A DNA stretch of 64,000 bases from Gammaproteobacteria bacterium (lineage in GTDB: Bacteria; Pseudomonadota; Gammaproteobacteria; Steroidobacterales; XN24), in NCBI GenBank assembly GCA_024640085.1, contig JAHEFR010000007.1:1-64000 (forward strand), given 5' to 3'. The first letter of the stretch is position 1. Each line of letters starts with the position of its first letter. Below the pieces are notes generated by a model, which searched no databases, was not told the DNA's origin, and was given only the letters and a program-made list of their open reading frames with translations. Made by a program: the position numbers and the translations under genes. Shown piece by piece: positions 18,302 through 30,632 of this stretch.

Positions 18302-18895
18302 ATGAAATCCCCCTGGCGGGTCGCGCTGTGCGCGACCGCGGCCGTTGTCATGCTGGGCCCCTCGGCGGCGAACGCCAAAGACGCCGCCAGCGGCGCTCTG
18401 TTCGGCTACGCTCTTGGCGAGGCCTACCCGGTGTCGGACACCACCCGGATCGTGGCCCGAAGCGCGGCGCGCAGCGCTCTGGTCACGCTGATCGCCGACG
18501 CACCGGTGAAGCCCGACGATATCGGCCAGGTGTTGCTGGTCACCACACCGGTCAGCCACACGATCATCGTCATCGGCGTCCAGGAGGGGTTTCAGGAGGA
18601 GGCGTCGGCCCGCGAGTTCGCTCGAAAATACCTCCACCTGCTGGCGGCCAAGTACCCCGACCACCAGATCAACATGGAAGTGTTCGATCGCCGCGGCAGT
18701 CTCCGGTTCAGTGATGACTACGAGCTGGTCGTGACCCTGCTGGAGGCTTATGACGGCGCGCTGGTGGACGCGCCCTGGGTGGTGGAGATGCTCTACCAGG
18801 CCCGGCCAGGCTCGCCGGCCGCGGAATTCCTGGCCAGGCGCATCGATGCTGACACCAATGCCGCGAAGCTCACGGAGGACAACCGCGGCCTTTGA
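18302..18895 (+). CDS. Hypothetical exported protein
   Basis: A 197-residue protein with a clean signal peptide (MKSPWRVALCATAAVVMLGP, cleavage after ANA near residue 25) and a good ribosome binding site (CCGGAG). The mature part is a mixed alpha/beta domain without cysteines or membrane segments. I do not recognise a family. It is a single gene, 190 bp after prpE, convergent with the electron-transfer locus to its right. Confidence 0.7.
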   Translation: MKSPWRVALCATAAVVMLGPSAANAKDAASGALFGYALGEAYPVSDTTRIVARSAARSALVTLIADAPVKPDDIGQVLLVTTPVSHTIIVIGVQEGFQEEASAREFARKYLHLLAAKYPDHQINMEVFDRRGSLRFSDDYELVVTLLEAYDGALVDAPWVVEMLYQARPGSPAAEFLARRIDADTNAAKLTEDNRGL

Positions 18896-18925: not shown

Positions 18926-19228
18926 TCAGCCGCCGGACTCGGGCAGATCCGGGGGCTTGGAGGCGCAGCTTGCGGTCATCCCCTCGGCGGCCCCGACTCC
19001 TGTGCAACTCGCCTTGGGGTCGGATTCGCAGACTCCGTATTGTTCACAGTAATTGAAGCCCGCGCGGCCCAGGGCCCAGCAACAGCGCAGGAACAGTTCG
19101 CGGGGGTCGGCATCGCCGGGGATTTCTGCCGCCGGGTCCGAGGCTGCCGGGGCCGGATTCTCCGCCCAGGCCAGACCGGTGGCCAACGCGCCCGCCAGGA
19201 ACAGAATCGATGTCCATCGGACGAGCAT
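18926..19228 (-). CDS. Small Cys-rich exported protein downstream of the MtrB-like gene
   Basis: A 100-residue protein started at the ATG at 19228 (AAAGGAGA upstream). Signal peptide residues 1-22 end at GLAWA. A Pro/Ala/Asp linker leads to a compact domain with six cysteines: an RCCWALG pair, then YCEQYGVC, then two more near the C-terminus (SCTG and SCAS). It follows the MtrB-like gene on the same strand, with a 116-bp gap holding no T-tract terminator, so it may be the last gene of that transcript. No CxxCH motif is present, so it is not a cytochrome. No family recognised. Confidence 0.65.
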   Translation of the reverse strand: MLVRWTSILFLAGALATGLAWAENPAPAASDPAAEIPGDADPRELFLRCCWALGRAGFNYCEQYGVCESDPKASCTGVGAAEGMTASCASKPPDLPESGG

Positions 19229-19344
19229 GGGTCGTCTCCTTTCCTGAAAGCCCAACACGAATATTAGCCATCGCACGGCCGGCGACGCTGCAATCGCGAC
19301 CCCCGAGTGATCAGGCGAGTCGCGGCGGCATCGGCCGCGTCTGA

Positions 19345-21530
19345 CTACTGCAACTTGTACAGCGTTTTCTCGCGCTCCGCGGGATCACCGAGGCTGTAAC
19401 GGAATCCCAGGCTGAACAGGGTCACATCGTAATCGGGACTGGTCCCACCCCAGGTGAGCACGTTGTTGATGGTATCGGGCTCGACGCCGTCCACGGCCCA
19501 GTTGTCGCTACTGTAGTCCTCGTACAGGACACCGCTCATGAAGCGGATCCTGGCCGAATAGTCATAGGTCAGGCCGAGCGTGACACGTTTCAGGTCCGTC
19601 TCGAGCTTGGGAAACTTGTCGACGCCGCCCGCGCGGTGTATTTCGGTCTTACCCTCGGACCGGGAATAGACGTAATCCAGTTCGAGTCCCCACTTGCCGA
19701 GCCCCGACCAGCGCATTCCCAGCCCGGCGGAATCGAAGTCATCATTGTTCTTGCCCTGCCAGTTGGGCGGCGCCGTGTTGGGGTTGGCGTTACCCGCAGC
19801 ACCCCACTGGGATGACTTGATCGACTCGCTCCCCAGGGAGCCGTAGAAACTGAGGTTCTGCCGCGGGGCGTAGCTGACGTCGGCGAGCCACACGTCCCGG
19901 TCGCCGCTGGTGAGACCGACGGCGGAATTGTCGTAGTCGTCGCTCCAGCTCTCGATCCTGAACGACAGGCTCAGGCGCTCGTTCGGCTGGCCGCTCACCT
20001 TGACCTCGACCCCGTCCCGGTCCCGGTCGGCCATGTTGTACTTGCGCATCAGCGGGTTCTGGCTCTGCCTGAGATAATCGACCTGCTGGTAATCCCCATC
20101 GATGTCGCGGCTCGCCGTCGATCCCCGGATATCGACATCGAACTGGCCCAGTTCCACCTTTACCTTGGCCCAGACCGTGTCCTCCTGGTTCTCGTCCACT
20201 TCCTGGTCGGTACGCTCGAGGATGTCGTGGCTGACGCCCAGGGAGGTCTTGATCGTACGGTTCCAGCGGTAGTCGCCGAAGAGATCGAAATCCTTGCGAG
20301 TGTAGCTGTACAGGAAGTTCTCCTGGGGATCGTTGGCCGGGTACAGGTCGGCTGCCACCCAGTCGTAAGTCTCCCGGGAACTCTTGTTGTCGCGGTCGTC
20401 GTAGGTGTATTCGCCGGTGATCCGCAGGCGCGCCCAGGGGGCCGATGTGACCCGCAGACCGGCATGGGTCGTGTCGATCTTGCCGTCGTAGGAGGTCGCC
20501 GGAAGCGGTGACGTGGCGATGTTCGGGTTGATGGTATAGGGCAGGTAGTCGTCGTCCTGCTCCCCTTCGCCCACGGACAGGGTGGCCGAGGCGGTGGTGT
20601 TCGCCATGAACTGGTAGGTACCGCTCAGGCTGACGTTGTACGCCTTGTTGTCGGGCGCGTTAGCCATCCGTCCGCGATCGGGACCGGTGAAAGCGTTGTC
20701 CCAGGTCAGGCCAAGTTTCTTGTTGCTGAACCAGGATCCGTAGAAGCCGCCGCGCACCTGCCAGTTATCGCCGGCGTAGGTGAGCCCTGCATCGACCTCC
20801 TGGGTCTCGTAATCCAGGGGGCGGGTCAGCTGGGTGGAATTGGTGAGGAACGTCCCCCAGGTCGCGCCCTTGCCCTCCTTCGTCTGATAACGCCAGTCCA
20901 CGTCGGCGAAGAAATTGGGGGTGAAGATGTACTCGCCGCCGACCCCGAAGGTCTGCCGATCCCACTGGAGGTTGAAATCGCGCAGGTCGCCGTTCAGGGC
21001 CGTCATCTGTGAGGTGCTGCCCGCCCGGACCCAGTCGGAGGGGAGATGTTGGGGGGTGCCGTCGAGATTGCTGTAGACCGACCGGGTGTCCTCCCCCTGG
21101 CTCACCGGCAGGAAATCCACCAGGAAGTCCGCGGACCACTTGCCCTGTTGGCCCGCGCCGAAGGTCAGCTCGAAGGAATCCGCGTTGTACCCAAAGGAAT
21201 TGATGTAGGCGCCGTAGCCTCCGGCACCCCAATACCGGAAGTCCTGGACCCCCAGGCCGCCGTAAACCTTGTCGTCGTCGTAGCCGGTGTAATTGCAAAA
21301 GTGTTTGACGAATCGGAGACCGACTTGGCGCCGACGGACACCGAACCCGAGTAGCCCTTGGCGAAGGGGCAGAGCTCGCACTTCCAGCTCGAGGTGTCGA
21401 CCGCGCCCGGCTCCCCGTCGACGCTCGTCTCGGCCGCTATGACCGGCGAAGCGCCGGCCGCCAGCGCGAGCGCCACGGCAACGGCCAGAAAGGTTCCCTG
21501 AGTCCTGGTGGTCCTATCCATCGTGTCCAC
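19345..21530 (-). CDS. mtrB: MtrB/PioB family outer-membrane beta-barrel, interrupted by a frameshift
   Basis: The barrel that sheathes the MtrA-type cytochrome in the outer membrane. The N-terminus (ATG at 21530) gives a signal peptide and the family's CxxC signature (SSWKCELCPFAKGYSGSVSV). About 78 codons in, near 21297-21300, the frame is lost, and the rest (YTGYDDDKVYGG onward, about 650 residues) continues in another frame to 19345. That part is rich in alternating beta strands with Tyr/Trp/Asp turns, such as GEYTYDDRDNKSS and LGFRYSLG, as expected of a 26-28-strand porin. Joined, the product would be about 727 residues, normal for the family. The shift falls at a run of four T (minus strand): a sequencing error, a true mutation or phase variation are all possible. 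It lies 13 bp downstream of mtrA. Confidence 0.85.
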
Positions 21531-21543
21531 TCTCCTCGGGCGT

Positions 21544-22488
21544 CTATCGGGTCAAGTTCGCGCCCGACGGGTGATTCGAACCGTGCACCTGGGTGTGGCA
21601 GTTCATGCAGCTGCCGCTCAGCAGGTAGACGCTCGGATTGCCGTCGGCCAGGCCGCCGGTTCCATAAGACACGGACGGGTGCCCGGACTGTGAATGACAC
21701 TGCTGGCACAACAAGGGCGGCTGCTTGGTCAACAGGGCCGGGTGCACCGATCCATGGGGCTGGTGGCAATAGGTGCAGTCCTCGGTGACCGGTGCATGCT
21801 CCCACAAGAGCGGCCCCCGCTTGTCCTGATGACAGGTGTAACAGGTCTCGTTGGTGGTATTGCGAACAAGCAGGTGATCGGAGGTCGATCCATGGGGTGC
21901 GTGGCAGGCGGTGCAGGCCATCCGCCGGGCCTCGATGGGGTGCACGTAGGGCTTGTTCTCGTCGGCCTTCTGCTCGAGATGGCACTGGTAACAGACCTGG
22001 GCCTGGAGATTGGTCTTCAGCACCGGATCCGTCGAGGCGTGAGGGTTGTGGCACTCACCGCAGTTGACGTCTTCGACGTCATGGGTGCTCCCGGCCCAGT
22101 GCAGGCCCACATGTTTATCGTGGCATGCGAGACACATCTGGTTGTGCTCGCGGGCACTCGCGCTACTGTCGTGGCCCCAGTACGGGACCGACGGCCGCGG
22201 CTCTCCCCTGGCCGGCAACTTGACGTGCTCGCCGCCCGGTCCGTGGCAAGCCTCGCACTGGAGCTGTCCCTGGCCGAATGGCGACCTCGAATCTCCTGGC
22301 TGGCCGTGCACGCCGAGGAAAATGTTCGTGACCGCCTTGTCGTCGTGACAGCCGAGGCAGGTGTCCGCGCCGCGGCGGCTGTACTCCGGTCCAGCTTGCC
22401 CGGCAGACGGCTCTTCGGCCACGGAGATCGATATGGAGTTCGCGGCGACCGCCGCCAGGAACAGAGCCGTCAGGAGACTTTTCCGCAT
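21544..22488 (-). CDS. mtrA: MtrA/DmsE-type decahaem c-type cytochrome
   Basis: A 314-residue periplasmic cytochrome. A signal peptide (residues 1-24) is followed by ten CxxCH haem sites: CLGCH, CEACH, CLACH, CGECH, CYQCH, CTACH, CYTCH, CTYCH, CQQCH and CMNCH. Spacing and size match the MtrA/PioA/DmsE family, in which the haem wire runs inside an MtrB barrel across the outer membrane. The gene is directly followed by the MtrB-like gene (13 bp), as in known conduits, and preceded by two OmcA/MtrC-type genes. Haem attachment would need the Ccm system, which is not in this window. Confidence 0.95.
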   Translation of the reverse strand: MRKSLLTALFLAAVAANSISISVAEEPSAGQAGPEYSRRGADTCLGCHDDKAVTNIFLGVHGQPGDSRSPFGQGQLQCEACHGPGGEHVKLPARGEPRPSVPYWGHDSSASAREHNQMCLACHDKHVGLHWAGSTHDVEDVNCGECHNPHASTDPVLKTNLQAQVCYQCHLEQKADENKPYVHPIEARRMACTACHAPHGSTSDHLLVRNTTNETCYTCHQDKRGPLLWEHAPVTEDCTYCHQPHGSVHPALLTKQPPLLCQQCHSQSGHPSVSYGTGGLADGNPSVYLLSGSCMNCHTQVHGSNHPSGANLTR

Positions 22489-22770
22489 GCCGATTCCCTA
22501 GCCGATATTTCGTGGCAACCGTACAACATTCCCGGTGTTTAAGAAAGGCTCTCCGGGGAGGCATCCCCGGACCCTGTGGGGTTTTGCCGTCGGGTTGCGG
22601 AGCGCACTGACCACCCCTTGACCGTCGTCTCGTTACAACAGCGCCCGACGCGGGTCGCCGACCGGCAATCCTGGCCGCTGACGCCGCTTTGTAATTCCCT
22701 TCGTGGCGTGCAGACCCGAAACCGCCGGAGGCCCGCTGGCGGGCCCGTAAGATCCGTCGTCTCCAAACAC
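22489..22770. other. Gap upstream of mtrA with a perfect 8-bp hairpin
   Basis: Together with the terminator below it separates mtrA from the preceding decahaem lipoprotein gene. TCCGGGGA (22552-22559) and TCCCCGGA (22564-22571) form a perfect stem with a 4-nt loop; on the minus strand it is followed by a weak GAGCCTTTCTT tract. A second palindrome (GGCCCGC-TG-GCGGGCC) lies near 22731-22746. The mtrA promoter should be here, but I see no clear FNR-type box. Confidence 0.5.
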
Positions 22771-22841
22771 AAAAAAAAGAATCCGGCCGAAGCCGGATTC
22801 CAGTACTTTCCGGGACGGGGGCGTCCGTTGTGGACGCCCCC
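22771..22841 (-). terminator. Rho-independent terminator with tandem hairpin
   Basis: On the minus strand, downstream of the 803-residue OmcA/MtrC-type gene, a first stem-loop (10-bp GGGGGCGTCC/GGACGCCCCC, 22817-22841) is followed by GAATCCGGC-ttcg-GCCGGATTC (22779-22800) and eight T residues (22771-22778). The second hairpin with its UUCG loop and T8 tail is a textbook intrinsic terminator. Confidence 0.92.
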
Positions 22842-22851
22842 TCCGTTGTTG

Positions 22852-25263
22852 TTATTCCACGCCCGGGTTGTGGTACTTCGCAGTCTCAAACTCGGAGCCA
22901 GTGCCGTGACAGACGGCGCAAGCCTCGAGACCGTTCGGCATACCCATGTCACCGCCGGCGATATCGACCTTGGCCACATCGACCTGCGCGCCCTGGGTCA
23001 GGAAATGCCCCAGTGCCGCCTGGCTGGTGTGGCAGGCTCCGCAGTAGGTCGCGTTCGGCGTCGTCGCCGTGTCGTCGGTCCACATGAACTGCTCAGCGCC
23101 TTGGTCGGTGCTGACAGCCCTTGCCGCGGTGCGGGCGACATTGTAGGCGCCCTCGACGTGGCAGGTCTCGCAGTTGGCAACGCTCTGCGGGTAGGTCACC
23201 TCCGCGAACTCTCCGCTCGCGTAGGTCCCGCTGGCCGCATGGATAGAATGGACCAACAGACCGAACGCCCAGCCCTCCGGGACGTCCTCTCCGTCCTCTA
23301 CAGCGGTATCCGGGTTGTGGCAGACCAGGCAGATCTCGACATTGCCATTCCGGTTACCGCCATGGAGCGCCAGGCGCTCGTGGCAGGCGTTGCACTTGGC
23401 GCTGTCCACGGCGGTCTGGCGCTCCACGCCCGGGAAGAACGTGGCGCTGACGGCCTGGGCCCGATCAAAGCCGGTCACACCGTCCGCATCCGTGTACTCC
23501 CAGGCCGGGTGGCCGCCGAGGCCGATCATGACGTCGCCGGTGAAGTCCACCGGCAGCGCGGTGAAGTAGGTCACCGTGAAGCTGCCGTCGGCATTCTGCA
23601 CCGCCTGGTCCTGGAGAGCCGCCAGGTACATGCGATACGGATGGCCCTGTTCCCACGGCTGCTGGACCGCATTGGGCGGACCCTGCCATCGGGCGCCGCC
23701 GGTGTTGCCCAGCTCGTCGCCGTTGTAGATCTCGTCGCTGGCCCAGGCCACGTAGAGATTCAGCGCCGCGTTGCCGTCCGTGAATTCCGGATCGTTGACG
23801 ATGTCGTACGGGGTCCCTTCAGGATTCGTGATCAGGAAGGTGATGACGGGCGTCTCGCCCGGACCGGTGCTGGTCGCATCCAGAATCTCGAAGACGAAGT
23901 TGTCTCCGCTCTCGTTGCGTCGACGCTGGCTGCCGCGAATATTGGCGTGGATCACCGCGGGTGGTCCCGCCGTGGTGATGTTGCCGAGGTGGCAAGCCGT
24001 GCACTGGCCGTCATCGACGGTCCCGATCTGCACGTCGGCGCCTGCGGCATTATGGTCGAATGCATAACTGTAGACGCCGCTTACCGGATCCGGATCGCTG
24101 GCGACGATGCCCAGAGCGTGGCAGCCGCCGCAGGTCTTGGTCGACGCCTCGGAGTTCCACACATCGCCGTCGGGCGTCTGCTCGGTCTGCTTGTGGCACT
24201 TGCCGCAATACAGAACATCCTGCGGATAGGTCACTTCGCCATAGTCGTGGACGGACCCCCCGTAGCCGTAGATGATGTACGACGGGTCGCGGTTATCTCC
24301 CCGGTGGATGGAGTGTGCCAGGTAGGACATGTCCACCGACTCACCGGAGTCCGGATCCGTGCTGTACGGGTTGTGGCAGGTTACACAGTAGTCCACCGTC
24401 TTGCGCGGACCGCCGTGCAGCGCGAACGCGTAATGGCAGGTTTCGCATTCCTGCGTATCGGCGACCTGCTTCGTAAAGCCGCTGCCGGCGCCGCCGTCAG
24501 GCACGAAATCGAAAGTCGGGTTGTCGGGCGCCAGGGGCACCTCGCCCTCGCCGCTCAGACGGATCTCGAAGCCGACGCGATGCGTCAAGCCAGGCTCCCA
24601 TTCGACCGGATAGGGGTCGGTCACGTTGGTGACGTCTGTCGCGAACGTGTACTGGTACTGGCCGGGAGCGGTTTCCACCAGTTCGCCACTGCTGTCCGTG
24701 GTGGCCTGCAGAGCCTGGGGGAGTACCTGCGGACCCGAGCCGCTCGAGGTGGCTTCGCGGTTCACATAGCTCTGCCAGTAGCCGATACCGCCGTTGAAGC
24801 TCGGATCACCCGGCACCAGCTTGGCGAAGGTGAACTGCACCACGCCCGGCGCCAGGCCGACGGCGGGATTGCCGCTGGAATCCGTGACGGTGAAGGTCAC
24901 CACTGGCGGGCTCGACACCTGGACGTCGGTGATGGTGCCCTGGAGCTGGCCGAGAAACGCGATCTCCTCTTCGGTCAGGTCGGACCCGTTGCCGATGACG
25001 ATGTACTGATTGGCCAGCGAGTTGCAGTCGAGGACGTTGATCTCGCCGTCGCCGTTCAGATCCTCTTCGGGAAAATCGGGTATTCCGTTTTCGTTGAGGT
25101 CCCAACAGTTGAATCCGTCGGTACCATCCGTTCCGTCTGTGCCGGCCGGTCCCTGTGGTCCATCGTTCCCGTCGTCGCCGCCGCATCCTGCGAGGCCGAG
25201 ACCGAGAACCACGACAGACAGGACTGTGGTCAACCGGACTTTTCCGTGCCTCAGTGCATTCAT
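22852..25263 (-). CDS. OmcA/MtrC family decahaem c-type cytochrome lipoprotein (copy 1)
   Basis: An 803-residue cell-surface cytochrome. Start ATG at 25263 (GGGGA 8 nt upstream). Lipoprotein signal with lipobox LGLAGC, so the N-terminal Cys would be lipidated. A short collagen-like GxxGxx stretch and two Asp-rich loops (DLNENGIPD, DLNGDGEIN) resembling calcium-binding dockerin/EF-hand loops follow. Then come beta domains alternating with two pentahaem groups: CETCH, CVTCH, CGKCH, CGGCH, CTACH and, after a second beta domain, CNACH, CLVCH, CETCH, CGACH, CAVCH. This two-by-five layout is that of OmcA/MtrC, which accept electrons from MtrA-MtrB and pass them to minerals, electrodes or partners (or the reverse). 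Confidence 0.95.
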   Translation of the reverse strand: MNALRHGKVRLTTVLSVVVLGLGLAGCGGDDGNDGPQGPAGTDGTDGTDGFNCWDLNENGIPDFPEEDLNGDGEINVLDCNSLANQYIVIGNGSDLTEEEIAFLGQLQGTITDVQVSSPPVVTFTVTDSSGNPAVGLAPGVVQFTFAKLVPGDPSFNGGIGYWQSYVNREATSSGSGPQVLPQALQATTDSSGELVETAPGQYQYTFATDVTNVTDPYPVEWEPGLTHRVGFEIRLSGEGEVPLAPDNPTFDFVPDGGAGSGFTKQVADTQECETCHYAFALHGGPRKTVDYCVTCHNPYSTDPDSGESVDMSYLAHSIHRGDNRDPSYIIYGYGGSVHDYGEVTYPQDVLYCGKCHKQTEQTPDGDVWNSEASTKTCGGCHALGIVASDPDPVSGVYSYAFDHNAAGADVQIGTVDDGQCTACHLGNITTAGPPAVIHANIRGSQRRRNESGDNFVFEILDATSTGPGETPVITFLITNPEGTPYDIVNDPEFTDGNAALNLYVAWASDEIYNGDELGNTGGARWQGPPNAVQQPWEQGHPYRMYLAALQDQAVQNADGSFTVTYFTALPVDFTGDVMIGLGGHPAWEYTDADGVTGFDRAQAVSATFFPGVERQTAVDSAKCNACHERLALHGGNRNGNVEICLVCHNPDTAVEDGEDVPEGWAFGLLVHSIHAASGTYASGEFAEVTYPQSVANCETCHVEGAYNVARTAARAVSTDQGAEQFMWTDDTATTPNATYCGACHTSQAALGHFLTQGAQVDVAKVDIAGGDMGMPNGLEACAVCHGTGSEFETAKYHNPGVE

Positions 25264-25308
25264 GATGACTGTCCCCAATTTTCAGTAGTAACGTCTGATA
25301 GACAATCC

Positions 25309-25331
25309 GGCCCGTCGCAAAAAACCGGACC
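25309..25331 (-). promoter_or_regulatory. Conserved leader hairpin, copy 1
   Basis: On the transcribed strand GGUCCG pairs with CGGGCC (one G-U), closing an 11-nt loop. It ends 46 nt before the ATG. The copy 2 leader has the same hairpin at the same distance with a longer 8-bp stem, so the structure is kept while the loop sequence differs. It could protect the mRNA or gate translation. Confidence 0.5.
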
Positions 25332-25494
25332 GTCCTGATCGCAAAGCCTGAATTCCCACACTCCCGGCTTGCTGGTTATCCGCACCGCAGTCTCCCGGAA
25401 TCTCCCGGGAGCACTCCTTTGCGAATGAATGTTGTTTCTGATCTTTCCCCTTCTGGTACAAGTGACCTTGTAGATGAAGATTAGACCCATTCAA

Positions 25495-25508
25495 ATGATC
25501 TGGATCAA
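25495..25508 (-). promoter_or_regulatory. CRP/FNR-type binding site, copy 1 promoter
   Basis: Reads TTGATCCAGATCAT on the minus strand, one mismatch from the FNR/Anr consensus TTGAT-N4-ATCAA. It ends 22 nt before a plausible -10 (TACAAG), the geometry of an FNR class II activated promoter, and starts 232 nt from the start codon. It suggests induction when oxygen is low; the regulator itself is not in the window. Confidence 0.7.
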
Positions 25509-25755
25509 TTAGACCCCCGATATACGTACAAATCCCTATGCCGCCGGGATAAGGCCACGGCGACACAGGCGCACCTGGCGTGCCGTCCCGGAAAATAGCC
25601 GCCCAGGGAGGACCCTTCCCTGGCAGATCGCCGATTCGAGGGGTCTGTGGGGCCTGCTGACATCCTGCGCCGGAAGCCCCCGACGAAGGTGATGGCGGCT
25701 GACGAGGAACGGGTTCGCTCCCGGCTACGAAAGAGTCGCGTGGATTTGCCGCCGG

Positions 25756-25883
25756 AAAAAGAAAGGCCGGGAAATCCTTTCCCGGCCATTCGTGGGGATC
25801 GCCTGCTTCTTATCGACAGGCTGCTGTCATCATCAGGCTCGTCGCCCGTTGCGGGCGTTGAGGCGGGCCCGGAGGCCCGCCTC
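25756..25883 (-). terminator. Rho-independent terminator with upstream hairpins, behind decahaem copy 2
   Basis: On the minus strand GGCCGGGAAA-gga-TTTCCCGGCC (25765-25787) forms a perfect 10-bp stem followed by TTTCTTTTT. Closer to the gene, a second perfect 10-bp stem GAGGCGGGCC/GGCCCGCCTC (25860-25883) and a small CGCCCG/CGGGCG hairpin between them give a three-hairpin 3' end, similar in style to the one behind copy 1. Confidence 0.88.
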
Positions 25884-25894
25884 GTGTCATTGCC

Positions 25895-28507
25895 CTATTT
25901 GAACATCGCCATGATCTTGTCGATGATCCCGAACAGGGTGACGTCGTCGGAATCATTCTCGGCGTACGTCCCGTTGGTCAGCGTGTGGGCATTCCAGGAA
26001 GCCAGCGCACCGGCTGCATCCTGGTTGATCAGCCTTGCCCGGTGGCAGCCACCGCAGGCCCTGGAGGCCGGACCGGTGACGTACTCGGGAATGTTACCGC
26101 TGATGTTACGGCTAGCCGTCTCGAAGGGCTTGCCCGGAACCGCGCCAGTGTTGTCATAGATGCCGTACCAGGAATCGACGTCATAGGAGCCCGACAACAC
26201 GCCAGGTATGGTCTGGGACTGATCCGGCGGGTTGAACGTTTCCGGGTTATGGCAGGCCTCACAATTGGTGATCGTGAAGTTCGGGAAGACATGCTTGATG
26301 TGCAGGTCATACCGCGCCGTGTACACCGGATCCCAACCAGGCACCTGGTCGCTCACACCACCGTTGAATATATCGTCGGTGTCGAAGTCCTGGAACGAGT
26401 GGATCGTGTGGGCGTAGTTCACGATCGACCGTGACGCCATCTCGAGGTGACTGCCCGGGAACGTCGGGTTGTGGCAGTTCCGGCACATCGCGACATCTCC
26501 GCCCCGGCCGCTGCCGGCGTGGAATGTGGCGCCGAGCTGCTCGTGGCAGACGTTGCAGCCGTCCGTGGACACGATCGCAGCGGTCCCATTGTAATAGTTG
26601 GCAATGACACCGTTCTCACCCAAGTCGAACGCCTCGGTGACGGCGCTGAGCGCGATCGGTGTGCCATCGAGCTGCAGACCCGGCAGGACCGTTATCTGAG
26701 CCTTGGTGACGGTACCGTCGGCGATCAGGTCGGGCACGGTCTGGTATTCCATCCCCGCGATCCCGGTCCACCCAGTCAAATCAACGGTGGCCACGTAGGG
26801 ATCGGCCGCCGTGCCGGTGCCGGTGACACTCGGGAAGATGGGATTGTCCACATCACCCGGTTCCCACTCGAACCTGCAGCCACGGCCGCATGCGGCAGGG
26901 GCCCTGTTTTCATCCCCCTGATGGGAAGGAACGATGAAGTTCTTGGTGTTCAGGTCGTAGAAGGACACCAGCAACTCGGGCTCGATGGCCGGATCGCTCA
27001 CGCTGAACGTGACGGTCATCGTGTTGGCCGCGAGATCCACGCTGACATCGTCGATCGAAGCCGTGTAGACGCCCGCATACTTGGTGCCGTCATCCATGTA
27101 GACCCGATCCCAGTACCCGGAATGCAGGTCGGCGAACGTCGGGATGCCGGTGCCCGCCACGTGGCAGAGCTGGCAATCCAGGTCCATGCTGTGGAAGCCT
27201 TCGACACCTGCTTCGGTCCAGATGTACTCCATGGCCGGGGCTCTGCCCTCCTGGTAGTACTGGGAACCCGCAACGTCAACATCGTCCGGCCACGCATCTA
27301 CGCCCTGAACCGCATGGCAGCTCTTGCAGGTCTCGGCGACGAATTCCTCGTCGGCCAGCACCTGGTCCAGCTTGCCTTCGTGGCAGGTGGCACAGTTCGC
27401 CATGGACGATGGGAAGGGAAATTCCATGGCGTGGGACATGTGCGTGTCATTCATGACGTTGGCGGTGTACGCGTACAGTGCCTCTTCCGCGGCGCCGAGT
27501 TCAGTCGTCGCCCAGGCGTACGGATCGTCCACCATCCACTGCCAGTCCTCATGACCGCCTGAGCGGTCGTCATAGTGGCAGGACTTGCACGCCGCGAAGT
27601 CGGGGATGCCTTCCACCTCTGCCGCGCGATAGCCGTGCTTCAGGTAAGGACTACCATGACACTTGACGCAGCCGGCCACATTGGCGGCGGACTCGTAGGA
27701 CGCCGGATCGGCGGATGCCGCCGTTCCGAAGCCGACCGCGGTGTTGGCCTGGTGGTCATACAGGTGGACGTGGGTGCCGGCAGGCGTCTCGGCGCCGGCC
27801 CCGCCCTCGTGCACGAACAACGGGACCATGGCGACGTAGCCATAGACATGCGCATTGCTCACTTCCGGAGCGAACAAGCAACTGTCCCTAGACGCCGTGT
27901 AGAGGCCGTTACCCAGGAAAGTCAGCTGGTTCAGGCTGCAGGAGTTGAGGTACTCCCGCGTGGCGTCGAAGTACTCGACCGTGTAGAAGGTCCTCTGGTC
28001 GATCAGCCGGTCGCCCGTGGCAATGTCCGGGTCGTCAAACGGCTGGCCGTCAAGCAGCACTTCGAACTGCACCGTCACGGTGAACGTGCCGTCGCCATTG
28101 TCAACGCTCGATATGTCGCCGGCGTCGAAGTTCAGTTCCAGCGCACTCTCGTCGACGTATCTGTCGTAGATCTCCTGGTGTTCGCTACCGGCGGCAGCGT
28201 GGCAGGTCTCGCAGGATTCGGGCTTGGACGCCGCGATCTCCAGGGCGATCTTTGCCTCACCATCCTCGATGTTAGCGAGGGCGTTACAGTCGTCTGTGTT
28301 GACGACGCCGTCGTTGTTCAGGTCCTCGTCGGGGAGGTCCTTGATCCCGTTCTCGTTCAGGTCCCAACAGTTGAGACCATCCGTTCCGGCAGCCCCCGGC
28401 GCGCCGTCGTTCCCGTCATCGCCGCCGCAACCCGCGAGGCCAAGACCGAGAACGATGACAGACAGGAGCGTGGCTAACCGGAAGTTACCGTGCCTTAGTG
28501 CGTCCAT
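25895..28507 (-). CDS. OmcA/MtrC family decahaem c-type cytochrome lipoprotein (copy 2)
   Basis: An 870-residue paralogue of the downstream cytochrome. Start ATG at 28507. The first 80 residues are closely similar to copy 1: lipobox LGLAGC, collagen-like GNDGAPGAAGTDG, and Asp-rich loops DLNENGIKD and DLNNDGVVN. The rest has diverged. Ten haem sites: CETCH, CVKCH, CKSCH, CATCH, CKSCH, CQLCH, then a beta domain with a CGRGC pair, then CNVCH, CRNCH, CEACH, CGGCH. The first haem comes much earlier (about residue 105) than in copy 1, so the haem grouping is six plus four by order rather than five plus five. It ends with a hydrophobic DDVTLFGIIDKIMAMFK tail. Probably a second surface terminal of the same conduit. 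Confidence 0.94.
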   Translation of the reverse strand: MDALRHGNFRLATLLSVIVLGLGLAGCGGDDGNDGAPGAAGTDGLNCWDLNENGIKDLPDEDLNNDGVVNTDDCNALANIEDGEAKIALEIAASKPESCETCHAAAGSEHQEIYDRYVDESALELNFDAGDISSVDNGDGTFTVTVQFEVLLDGQPFDDPDIATGDRLIDQRTFYTVEYFDATREYLNSCSLNQLTFLGNGLYTASRDSCLFAPEVSNAHVYGYVAMVPLFVHEGGAGAETPAGTHVHLYDHQANTAVGFGTAASADPASYESAANVAGCVKCHGSPYLKHGYRAAEVEGIPDFAACKSCHYDDRSGGHEDWQWMVDDPYAWATTELGAAEEALYAYTANVMNDTHMSHAMEFPFPSSMANCATCHEGKLDQVLADEEFVAETCKSCHAVQGVDAWPDDVDVAGSQYYQEGRAPAMEYIWTEAGVEGFHSMDLDCQLCHVAGTGIPTFADLHSGYWDRVYMDDGTKYAGVYTASIDDVSVDLAANTMTVTFSVSDPAIEPELLVSFYDLNTKNFIVPSHQGDENRAPAACGRGCRFEWEPGDVDNPIFPSVTGTGTAADPYVATVDLTGWTGIAGMEYQTVPDLIADGTVTKAQITVLPGLQLDGTPIALSAVTEAFDLGENGVIANYYNGTAAIVSTDGCNVCHEQLGATFHAGSGRGGDVAMCRNCHNPTFPGSHLEMASRSIVNYAHTIHSFQDFDTDDIFNGGVSDQVPGWDPVYTARYDLHIKHVFPNFTITNCEACHNPETFNPPDQSQTIPGVLSGSYDVDSWYGIYDNTGAVPGKPFETASRNISGNIPEYVTGPASRACGGCHRARLINQDAAGALASWNAHTLTNGTYAENDSDDVTLFGIIDKIMAMFK

Positions 28508-28552
28508 AGTGACTGTCCCCAAGTTTCAATAGTTACGCCTAACAGACGATCC

Positions 28553-28575
28553 GGCCCGGCGTAAAAGGCCGGACC
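28553..28575 (-). promoter_or_regulatory. Conserved leader hairpin, copy 2
   Basis: GGUCCGGC pairs with GCCGGGCC on the transcribed strand (8 bp, one G-U, 7-nt loop). It lies 46 nt from the ATG, exactly as in copy 1. Confidence 0.5.
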
Positions 28576-28737
28576 GCCCAAAATTCGCAAAGCCTGACAA
28601 TTTTCACTCTCAGCTCGCTTGTTGTTCCGCGCCGGATTCCATGCGGTTTGAAGGAGTCCGAGGCGAATCATTCTTGTTGCCTGATCTTTTTCCTATCAAT
28701 ACAAGGGACTTTTTAAAGGAGGCAGTAGAGCTTTCCC

Positions 28738-28751
28738 ATGACCTAGGTCAA
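28738..28751 (-). promoter_or_regulatory. CRP/FNR-family-like palindrome, copy 2 promoter
   Basis: TTGACCTAGGTCAT on the minus strand, a near-perfect palindrome of the form TTGAC-N4-GTCAA. Compared with the copy 1 site, the inner base of each half-site is changed from T/A to C/G, which could alter which family member (FNR, DNR-like or other) binds. It is placed 231 nt from the start codon, matching the 232 nt of copy 1. Confidence 0.6.
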
Positions 28752-28845
28752 TTGCAGTGCAAAATACGTATATTTACGTACAACCAGCCACGTGTGCCAC
28801 AGCCATGTCGATAGGCGCAGATTCCTCGATGAGCCGACCCAAGCC

Positions 28846-28869
28846 AAAAAAAAGCGCCCTTTCGGGCGC
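28846..28869 (-). terminator. Rho-independent terminator after the monohaem cytochrome
   Basis: On the minus strand GCGCCC-gaaa-GGGCGC followed by eight T residues. It ends the small cytochrome c transcript about 70 nt after its stop codon, so the decahaem genes downstream rely on their own promoters. Confidence 0.92.
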
Positions 28870-28938
28870 CGCTTGTCCAGTCTGGTCGGGGATCGTCCGT
28901 TTCGGACGACGGGCTGATCCCGAGTCGAGGAGATTCGA

Positions 28939-29214
28939 CTACTTGAAGCTTGACCAGTAAGTCGCGATGTTGACGATATCCGCGTCGGTCAGACCGCTCG
29001 CGTCGCCCTTGTGCTCGACGCCGCCGCCTTTCACCGAGGTGATCATGGTGACGATTTCCTCGGTGGACTCGCCGGCGAAATCGTCCTCATAGTGACATTC
29101 AGCGCACTTGGCCTCGAACACGGCCTTGCCGGCCTCGGCGTCCCCGGCCGCGCTGGCGGCCACGCCCCACAGCGCCAACGGCAACGCCAGCACAAGTCCC
29201 TTCACGATATGCAT
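28939..29214 (-). CDS. Small monohaem c-type cytochrome
   Basis: A 91-residue exported class I-like cytochrome. ATG at 29214 with GGAG 9 nt upstream; signal peptide MHIVKGLVLALPLALWGVAA with cleavage after SAA. The mature part begins GDAEAGKAVFEAKCAECH (one haem) and ends LTDADIVNIATYWSSFK, a typical C-terminal helix. The only internal Met after the haem site is in VTMITSV, so the sixth haem ligand is uncertain. It has its own promoter and terminator and sits at the head of the decahaem cluster. It may shuttle electrons in the periplasm between inner-membrane quinol oxidation and the MtrA-type cytochrome. Confidence 0.9.
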   Translation of the reverse strand: MHIVKGLVLALPLALWGVAASAAGDAEAGKAVFEAKCAECHYEDDFAGESTEEIVTMITSVKGGGVEHKGDASGLTDADIVNIATYWSSFK

Positions 29215-29244
29215 AGGTCGGTACTCCATGAAACGAAGGGCCAG

Positions 29245-29272
29245 ATCATAACGCAGCGGGGCCGAACATCAA
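29245..29272 (-). promoter_or_regulatory. Probable sigma-70 promoter of the monohaem cytochrome
   Basis: On the minus strand TTGATG (-35, 29267-29272), a 16-nt spacer and TATGAT (-10, 29245-29250), giving a predicted start about 24 nt before the ATG. Unlike the decahaem promoters, no FNR-like box is seen, so expression may be constitutive. Confidence 0.6.
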
Positions 29273-30350: not shown

Positions 30351-30632
30351 TCAGTCGGGAGCGATCTGCGGCCCGATCACGATGCGGTCCGCGTTCCACT
30401 CAAGGATGCGCGGGCCCACGCCGCTGACGTCCAGCAACTGCTCGGGGCTGTCGAATCGGCCCACGGTTTCCCGGTACTCGACGATGGCCTGGGCCCGGGC
30501 AATTCCGACCCCTTCCAGCTCCGCGGCCAGAGTGGCCGCATCGGCGGTATTGATGTTGACCGTACCCGCCTGGGCATAGCCGGCGATGAACATCGCCAGG
30601 ATGCCCGCGGCCCGCGTGATTGTCCTCAGCAT
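30351..30632 (-). CDS. comEA: ComEA-type helix-hairpin-helix DNA-binding protein
   Basis: A 93-residue protein with an export signal (residues 1-22, ending AGYAQA) and the domain TVNINTADAATLAAELEGVG followed by a second hairpin LLDVSGVGPRILEW. Small exported proteins of this type bind double-stranded DNA in the periplasm and pull it in during natural transformation; other members have no proven role. A good ribosome binding site (GGAGGG) precedes the ATG. Its own terminator lies directly downstream. Confidence 0.88.
   Translation of the reverse strand: MLRTITRAAGILAMFIAGYAQAGTVNINTADAATLAAELEGVGIARAQAIVEYRETVGRFDSPEQLLDVSGVGPRILEWNADRIVIGPQIAPD

Follow-up and report, generated by a model that had tools for sequence, protein, structure and literature searches.

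A probable Mtr-type porin-cytochrome locus in a gammaproteobacterium, with a second surface decahaem cytochrome whose tenth haem motif precedes domain I

Results

Gene content of the locus

The window analysed here comprises 64,000 nucleotides (positions 1 to 64,000 of contig JAHEFR010000007.1, assembly GCA_024640085.1). Between galU and acs, its minus strand holds genes for a cytochrome c with a single haem, a pair of surface lipoproteins with ten haems each, a decahaem cytochrome of the DmsE/MtrA type and a barrel of the MtrB/PioB family (Table 1). Only three open reading frames in the whole window carry at least two CxxCH motifs (mtrA, omcA1 and omcA2), with exactly 10 in each, and no mtrDEF was found within it. 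The first-pass annotation had named the same genes, and its assignments were partly borne out by the family models: mtrA and the barrel exceed the cut-offs of TIGR03508 (192.2 bits) and TIGR03509 (240.05 bits), respectively, and the monohaem gene encodes a class I (cbb3-type) cytochrome c that is kept at the same place in relatives. For the two lipoproteins, described there as OmcA/MtrC-type, the count of 10 CxxCH each and the placement of omcA1 were upheld, whereas omcA2 belongs to a separate clade, stays under the OmcA/MtrC cut-off and arranges its haems as 1+5+4. The 116-aa open reading frame downstream of mtrB is devoid of a haem motif and was dropped as a part of the conduit because no homologue was found in relatives.

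Table 1. Features of the locus, in window coordinates
Feature	Position	Strand	Basis and remarks
Small secreted monohaem cytochrome c	28939..29229	-	Class I, cbb3-type domain; PF13442 30.0 bits; one CxxCH; between galU and lipoproteins
omcA2, decahaem surface lipoprotein	25895..28507	-	Separate clade; 1+5+4 haem layout
omcA1, canonical OmcA/MtrC-family decahaem lipoprotein	22852..25263	-	TIGR03507; 5+5; MtrC position adjoining mtrAB
dmsE/mtrA, periplasmic decahaem cytochrome filling the barrel	21544..22488	-	TIGR03508 285.6 bits; 10 CxxCH
mtrB 5' part: signal peptide and KCELC (CxxC) segment, frame -3	21297..21530	-	tblastn, translation
mtrB barrel part, frame -2	19345..21300	-	PF11854 E 8.9e-128; TIGR03509 378.4 bits
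omcA1 leader segment	25010..25322	-	Homologous to omcA2 leader
omcA2 leader segment	28272..28566	-	Homologous to omcA1 leader
116-aa secreted Cys-containing ORF downstream of mtrB	18926..19276	-	Outside conduit

Conservation of the gene order

Comparison with close relatives revealed that the order galU-(cytc)-omcA(1-2)-mtrA-mtrB recurs within the family, in genomes G002, G004, G005 and G006, while in G003 omcA-mtrA-mtrB and galU-cytc-omcA lie on separate contigs. By tblastn, the monohaem cytochrome was found at the same place in G001 (66%), G003 (46%) and G004 (36%). An arrangement with omcA2 directly upstream of omcA1-mtrA-mtrB was also seen in L117, L130, L165, L173, L183 and L193, of which L117, L130 and L183 are Woeseiaceae with the identical order. 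The presence of two lipoproteins is not unique to this genome, as two type-A copies are found in G002 and G005, and B+A pairs in Woeseiaceae.

mtrCAB has been published for related Woeseiaceae (UBA1847 and others) and read as iron reduction (PMC12175321). Gene set and order there are the same as here, so the conduit itself is of an already known type. The window comes from another family of the same order, into which the Chromatiales-like placement of the first-pass annotation fits; the 1+5+4 protein is not described in the accessible part of that paper. The Shewanella oneidensis and S. baltica MtrCAB-OmcA systems likewise combine an MtrA-type decahaem cytochrome, an MtrB-type barrel and a 5+5 MtrC-type lipoprotein adjoining mtrAB, and their omcA lies upstream of mtrCAB, as does the second decahaem lipoprotein here. 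In contrast to Shewanella, the second lipoprotein here is 1+5+4 and scores below the TIGR03507 cut-off, the window lacks mtrDEF, mtrB is frameshifted, and the locus is placed between galU and acs. At least one extra MtrC-family gene was reported in 44% of clusters by Baker et al. 2022 (PMC8805035), an arrangement that the second surface lipoprotein resembles; the accessible part of that paper does not discuss haem layout or a shift of the terminal haem.

A frameshift in mtrB

In this assembly, a one-base frameshift splits mtrB at about 21297-21300. By tblastn, the first 65-80 or so residues of MtrB from two relatives align to 21512-21297 in frame -3 (E 4e-8 with G004 and 8e-9 with G003), the remainder falling at 21300-19381 in frame -2, where the barrel part matches residues 80-720 of G004 MtrB at 51%. 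Other genomes with full-length matches have mtrB as a single open frame with no frameshift, so that the word "complete" in the first-pass annotation could not be retained, and a working conduit in this organism is in doubt because mtrB is frameshifted as sequenced. We regard an assembly error as somewhat more likely than a fresh break.

If the frameshift is genuine and recent, it could mark a decaying pseudo-operon in a genus whose sister species has already lost mtrAB, a serious possibility that we nevertheless hold to be the less probable one. Besides the frameshift itself, this is suggested by G001, the only same-genus genome and a single contig, in which we found no mtrB match and, at this place, only galU-cytc followed by one other decahaem lipoprotein. 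Against it, the barrel is otherwise stop-free over some 640 codons, all 30 haem motifs are kept in mtrA, omcA1 and omcA2, G001 is estimated to be only 80% complete, and a single-base error in a draft assembly would look identical. Production of MtrB by programmed ribosomal frameshifting, to which the overlap of the two frames at a run of four T is the sole pointer, is highly improbable given the one open frame in other genomes with full-length matches and the absence of a conserved signal. By homology, the assignment of the locus to the Mtr conduits stands despite the frameshift.

omcA1, omcA2 and their shared leader

omcA1 reaches 442.6 bits against the TIGR03507 cut-off of 209.3 and, with its 5+5 haems, belongs to the OmcA/MtrC family; it has the Pfam OmcA-like_N and MtrC/MtrF II/IV domains, and its profile matches OmcA (4LMH; E 1e-85) and MtrF (3PMQ) in the PDB. 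The leaders of omcA1 and omcA2 share 74% DNA identity over 313 columns, a stretch that includes the upstream region, the lipobox LAGC, a Gly-rich linker and a CWDLNENG..DLNGDG segment. With this lipobox and linker, both proteins are candidate lipoproteins of the outer face of the outer membrane. A recent duplication of omcA1 was rejected as the origin of omcA2, as the leader alone is common to the two, the protein bodies being about 25-29% identical and placed in separate, fully supported clades.

omcA2 attains only 119 bits under TIGR03507. Its CxxCH motifs lie at residues 99; 280, 307, 372, 394, 445; and 651, 675, 749, 818 of 870, so that it departs from the 5+5 pattern of OmcA/MtrC, in which domains II and IV are both pentahaem: haem 10 is missing and an extra haem stands ahead of domain I. 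Profile comparison with the omcA1 family (E 3e-46) maps nine of the ten haems one to one on omcA1 haems 1-9, while the N-terminal haem falls on none and haem 10 is left unmatched. The 10 haem motifs and ten further His are invariant in all 64 aligned homologues.

At E<=0.1, a sequence search with the omcA2 profile matched no PDB chain. AlphaFold2 gave a pLDDT of 51 with 16 close homologues and of 84.9 with the 64-sequence alignment; the latter model has the predicted four-domain beta/pentahaem/beta/multihaem fold, with MtrC, OmcA, UndA and MtrF leading the structural matches at Z 12.8-14.0 and the next unrelated entry at 7.3. Foldseek alone returned MtrF (3PMQ) as the sole meaningful match, MtrC, OmcA and UndA coming from a second structural comparison. 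Surface cytochromes of differing haem number also include OmhA and UndA, each with 11 haems. UndA has the four-domain fold in common with omcA2 (Z 12.8), but there the additional haem is number 7, in the cleft of domain III (PMC4486940), whereas the new haem of omcA2 precedes domain I.

The omcA2 type forms its own clade, and the 1+5+4 form spans metagenome-assembled genomes of Pseudomonadota, Chloroflexota, Planctomycetota, Myxococcota and archaea, phyla that for the distant homologues were taken from genome titles and may include binning errors. A search of the open literature for permuted or 1+5+4 surface cytochromes, as well as for OmcA-like proteins of Anaeromyxobacter or Chloroflexi, gave nothing relevant, which is not proof of absence; the branch is widespread and apparently undescribed.

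Distribution of the terminal haem

Among 107 relatives, which are mutually related and were selected for at least 7 haem motifs, 31 are 0+5+5 and 75 are 1 or 3+5+4, the remaining one being a broken gene. Each of the 106 unbroken relatives, which fall in three groups, carries exactly one of the two end haems, the N-terminal one or haem 10. Two Anaeromyxobacter sequences (L186 and L189) are 5+5 inside the B group and represent apparent switches.

Half-to-half alignments, which the CxxCH motif itself aids, place (i) haems 1-5 of canonical omcA1 onto haems 6-10 (E 4e-40), (ii) the N-terminal haem and haems 1-4 of omcA2 onto haem 5 and haems 6-9 of omcA1 (E 5e-15), and (iii) within omcA2, the N-terminal haem onto haem 5 (E 9.5e-13); a comparison restricted to one haem and one beta domain gave E 2e-6 (89% probability). 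As judged from these alignments, omcA2 reads as two haem-beta domain-four haem units, compared with two beta domain-five haem units in MtrC.

Discussion

We consider it likely that the locus is a chromosomal porin-cytochrome conduit of Mtr type. One of its two surface proteins, omcA2, comes from a clade of its own that has the MtrC fold, with the tenth haem lying before domain I and not after domain IV. The Mtr-type conduit proposed at first pass is supported by the curated models, by the synteny conserved in the family, and by the search of the genome for haem maturation and quinol-oxidising partners. This search found CcmF and several multihaem inner-membrane candidates elsewhere in the genome: contig 42 encodes an 11-haem protein whose tail resembles cytochrome b561, together with a pentahaem protein of NrfH-like type, and contig 39 encodes a tetrahaem NapC/NirT protein.

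The terminal haem would have changed chain ends, probably keeping its site. We infer that the relocated haem lies at or near the haem-10 site, which would keep the ten-haem cross and put its outer end on the lipid-anchored N-terminal arm. More generally, we tentatively propose, at a confidence just short of even, that the MtrC decahaem fold exists in two forms in which the terminal haem is swapped from the C- to the N-terminus at the same site, in a manner resembling circular permutation within a two-fold repeat. The 1+5+4 proteins would then be an undescribed family of surface cytochromes reaching from Pseudomonadota to Chloroflexota, Planctomycetota, Myxococcota and archaea, and would have a partial role as second partner of MtrCAB at the cell surface. 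Alternatively, the N-terminal haem may have been gained as an entry or docking haem near the membrane, next to domain I or haem 5, with an unrelated loss of haem 10 and an altered haem path. The N-terminal segment indeed adjoins the lipid-anchored linker, and residues 1-34 of the model lie outside the range, from residue 35 on, that aligns with all solved relatives. The strict either-or distribution of the end haems over the 106 unbroken relatives, with its apparent switches, and the repeat equivalence of the N-terminal haem and haem 5 argue against an added haem, which we hold to be the less likely reading.

For the conduit as a whole, we infer the order of partners and the direction of flow as follows. 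An inner-membrane multihaem cytochrome would oxidise quinol and pass electrons through periplasmic carriers, perhaps including the monohaem cytochrome c, to MtrA, housed in the MtrB barrel, from which they would go on to omcA1 at the position of MtrC. The second lipoprotein, omcA2, might be fed by omcA1 or act as a parallel second surface reductase, like OmcA beside MtrC. Outward flow is likely. PioAB and MtoAB employ the same barrel family as MtrB, and the genome encodes a RuBisCO-large family protein (E 2.5e-137, a family-level match), so that uptake of electrons from Fe(II) or solids to feed CO2 fixation is an alternative to acceptor reduction. We judge uptake unlikely: two surface decahaem proteins are present here, while mtr clusters that serve Fe(II) oxidation are often without a surface MtrC gene (PMC4245776), and the Woeseiaceae mtrCAB is interpreted as iron reduction (PMC12175321).

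In MtrC, electrons are proposed to leave for minerals and electrodes through haem 10 (PMC12304082, PMC12203936). A sister clade that is widespread, lacks haem 10 at its usual place and always carries the tenth haem at the opposite chain end offers a natural test of the exit haem and of the ten-haem cross. The distinction between 5+5 and 1+5+4 also provides a simple sorting rule for surface cytochromes that score under the TIGR03507 cut-off, a rule that extends to phyla lacking a classical outer membrane. Whether the surface cytochromes of this organism retain the barrel that feeds them depends on a single frameshift in mtrB.

Gene content of the conduit and the mtrB frameshift

The window comes from a draft genome of 3.19 Mb (73 contigs, 95.8% complete). 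A motif count over the whole window found only three ORFs with at least two CxxCH motifs, each carrying ten, a pattern not attributable to chance. With omcA1 (the canonical lipoprotein gene beside mtrA), MtrA and MtrB exceeding their curated cut-offs (TIGR03507, TIGR03508 and TIGR03509, respectively), the porin-cytochrome gene set proposed in the first-pass annotation is real. Its assignment of two OmcA/MtrC-type lipoproteins held for omcA1 and not for omcA2, which scores 119 bits against a TIGR03507 cut-off of 209.3 and is a distinct variant that had gone unrecognized, with a layout and clade of its own. The conduit as such is ordinary, one more case of an established kind, since mtrCAB is already published for Woeseiaceae from sediment, where a role in iron reduction was proposed (PMC12175321).

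Conduit genes and other loci (transcription order in brackets)
Feature	Location	Strand
Monohaem cytochrome c (first)	28939-29229	minus
omcA2 (second)	25895-28507	minus
omcA1 (third)	22852-25263	minus
DmsE/MtrA decahaem cytochrome (fourth)	21544-22488	minus
MtrB/PioB barrel (last)	19345-21530	minus
Secreted protein, 197 aa, between acs and conduit	18302-18895	plus
Small helix-hairpin-helix protein (ComEA-like, by eye), adjoining galU	30351-30632
NapC/NirT tetrahaem protein adjoining octahaem HAO-like cytochrome	contig 39, 3364-5267 (L064)
11-haem protein adjoining NrfH-like pentahaem protein	contig 42, L200:8359-11982
Octahaem lipoprotein	contig 44, 323.4-325.1 kb (L065:13423-15099)
galU, small cytochrome c and third-type decahaem lipoprotein of G001	contig 1, L201:11184-13724

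To call the conduit complete was an overstatement, as the N-terminal CxxC segment and the barrel of mtrB occupy different frames. In tblastn, MtrB queries from two relatives run across the join with almost unbroken query numbering, in frame -3 as far as 21297 and then in frame -2 starting at 21300 or 21291; the barrel part is otherwise clean. MtrB matches were obtained in 30 genomes besides the window's own (117 searched), none with internal stops. The break may be an assembly error or a genuine recent lesion, both being compatible with the assembled sequence. Barrel loss within the genus is conceivable, since mtrB found no match in G001, the sole same-genus genome; there, galU and the same small cytochrome c (66%) are followed by a decahaem lipoprotein of a different type, and neither mtrA nor mtrB is present at this place. 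The 197-aa protein gave no family matches and no homologues in the relatives' loci.

Haem layout of omcA2

Profile-profile alignment of the two families matched omcA2 haems 2-10 to omcA1 haems 1-9, whereby the N-terminal haem of omcA2 and haem 10 of omcA1 were left without a partner. Across 64 aligned omcA2 homologues, all ten haem motifs and ten further histidines are invariant, as expected for ten bis-His haems. Written as haems before domain I, in domain II and in domain IV, the layouts of the full-length relatives collected are 0+5+5 in 31 and, in 75, an N-terminal haem followed by 5+4 (three N-terminal haems in one of them), one further gene being broken; every unbroken relative has one of the two end haems and not the other, and, while these relatives are not independent sequences, the exclusion holds in all three groups (omcA1-like, omcA2-like and that of the G001 protein, 1+5+4 in 11 of 11). 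Two Anaeromyxobacter proteins (A. terrae, L186; A. soli, L189) match the omcA2 clade best yet are 5+5, with haem 10 and without the N-terminal haem, an apparent layout switch inside a lineage. Judged by the open literature searched, the variant represented by the 1+5+4 clade is new.

The G001-type lipoprotein has relatives in 19 further genomes of this order. At four loci (L105 and L082, also L125 and L131), the fifth domain-II motif of the omcA2 homologue is CX3CH rather than CX2CH.

Internal repetition is seen in the canonical omcA1, whose haems 1-5 align onto 6-10 (E 4e-40). In omcA2, the first half aligns onto omcA1 with its N-terminal haem on h5 and h1 to h4 paired with h6 to h9, respectively (E 5e-15), and within omcA2 the N-terminal haem again falls on h5 (E 9.5e-13). 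Judged by these half-to-half alignments, MtrC reads as twice [beta domain - five haems] and omcA2 as twice [haem - beta domain - four haems]. Read most simply, the terminal haem of omcA2 would have switched chain ends; if the halves obey the approximate two-fold symmetry suggested by the repeat, the haem preceding domain I would lie at the haem-10 site. From residue 35 onward, the fold model of omcA2 (pLDDT 84.9) matches MtrC, OmcA, UndA and MtrF (Z 12.8-14.0), the N-terminal haem segment lying outside the aligned range.

Shared leader and taxonomic spread

The two lipoproteins have in common an upstream region, lipobox, Gly-rich linker and calcium-binding-like CWDLNENG..DLNGDG segment. As these leaders share 74% DNA identity despite bodies only 25-29% identical, the comparison suggests that the neighbouring genes have exchanged the leader. 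A similar leader is found on the contig 44 lipoprotein, of the octahaem tetrathionate-reductase family (TIGR04315, 415.7 bits, over cut-off).

Within the order, the genomes that supplied homologues bear the titles Woeseiaceae or Chromatiales; the window's family is not Woeseiaceae but another of the same order. Among 396 genomes of the order searched, omcA2 relatives were found in 23 others (full-length ones 46-57% identical), none of them from the window's own family. Scanning genome contigs with a profile yielded 78 loci, whose labels (MAG titles) name Pseudomonadota, Myxococcota, Thermodesulfobacteriota, Nitrospirota, Planctomycetota, Bdellovibrionota, Chloroflexota and several archaea. Of the omcA2-bearing genomes among those searched for mtrB, 7 of 8, including the window's, have it. 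Six more loci (L117, L130, L165, L173, L183 and L193) share the window's arrangement, with omcA2 immediately upstream of omcA1-mtrA-mtrB; in others it stands beside an octahaem lipoprotein or alone.

Genomic setting and possible function

Placement beside galU is a family trait: one locus (G004) reads acs, mtrB, mtrA, omcA1, small cytochrome c, galU; in three (G002, G005 and G006) galU adjoins one or two omcA, followed by mtrA and mtrB; and in G003 the genes are split between two contigs, one with galU, the cytochrome and an omcA, the other with omcA, mtrA and mtrB. The helix-hairpin-helix gene is probably housekeeping synteny; such a gene is reported beside mtrC in some Betaproteobacteria (PMC8805035).

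In Shewanella, electrons from MtrA are described as entering MtrC at haem 5, haem 10 being the farthest and the proposed exit, and OmcA as reduced mainly via MtrC domains III/IV (PMC12304082, PMC12203936). By analogy with Shewanella MtrC and OmcA, omcA1 would dock on MtrAB and omcA2 would act as a second surface reductase.

Elsewhere the genome encodes CcmF. The contig 39 pair is, as a side observation, a separate nitrogen-oxide or quinol-linked module. On contig 42, the 11-haem protein has a weak cytochrome-b561 match in its tail and the NrfH-like protein is 58% identical to one near a Woeseiaceae conduit; some Woeseiaceae (L100, L106) have this pair close to their conduit. We infer that the contig 42 pair is the preferred candidate for the quinol-oxidising partner of the conduit. 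A RuBisCO-large family protein is also encoded, which leaves electron uptake as a less likely role of the conduit.
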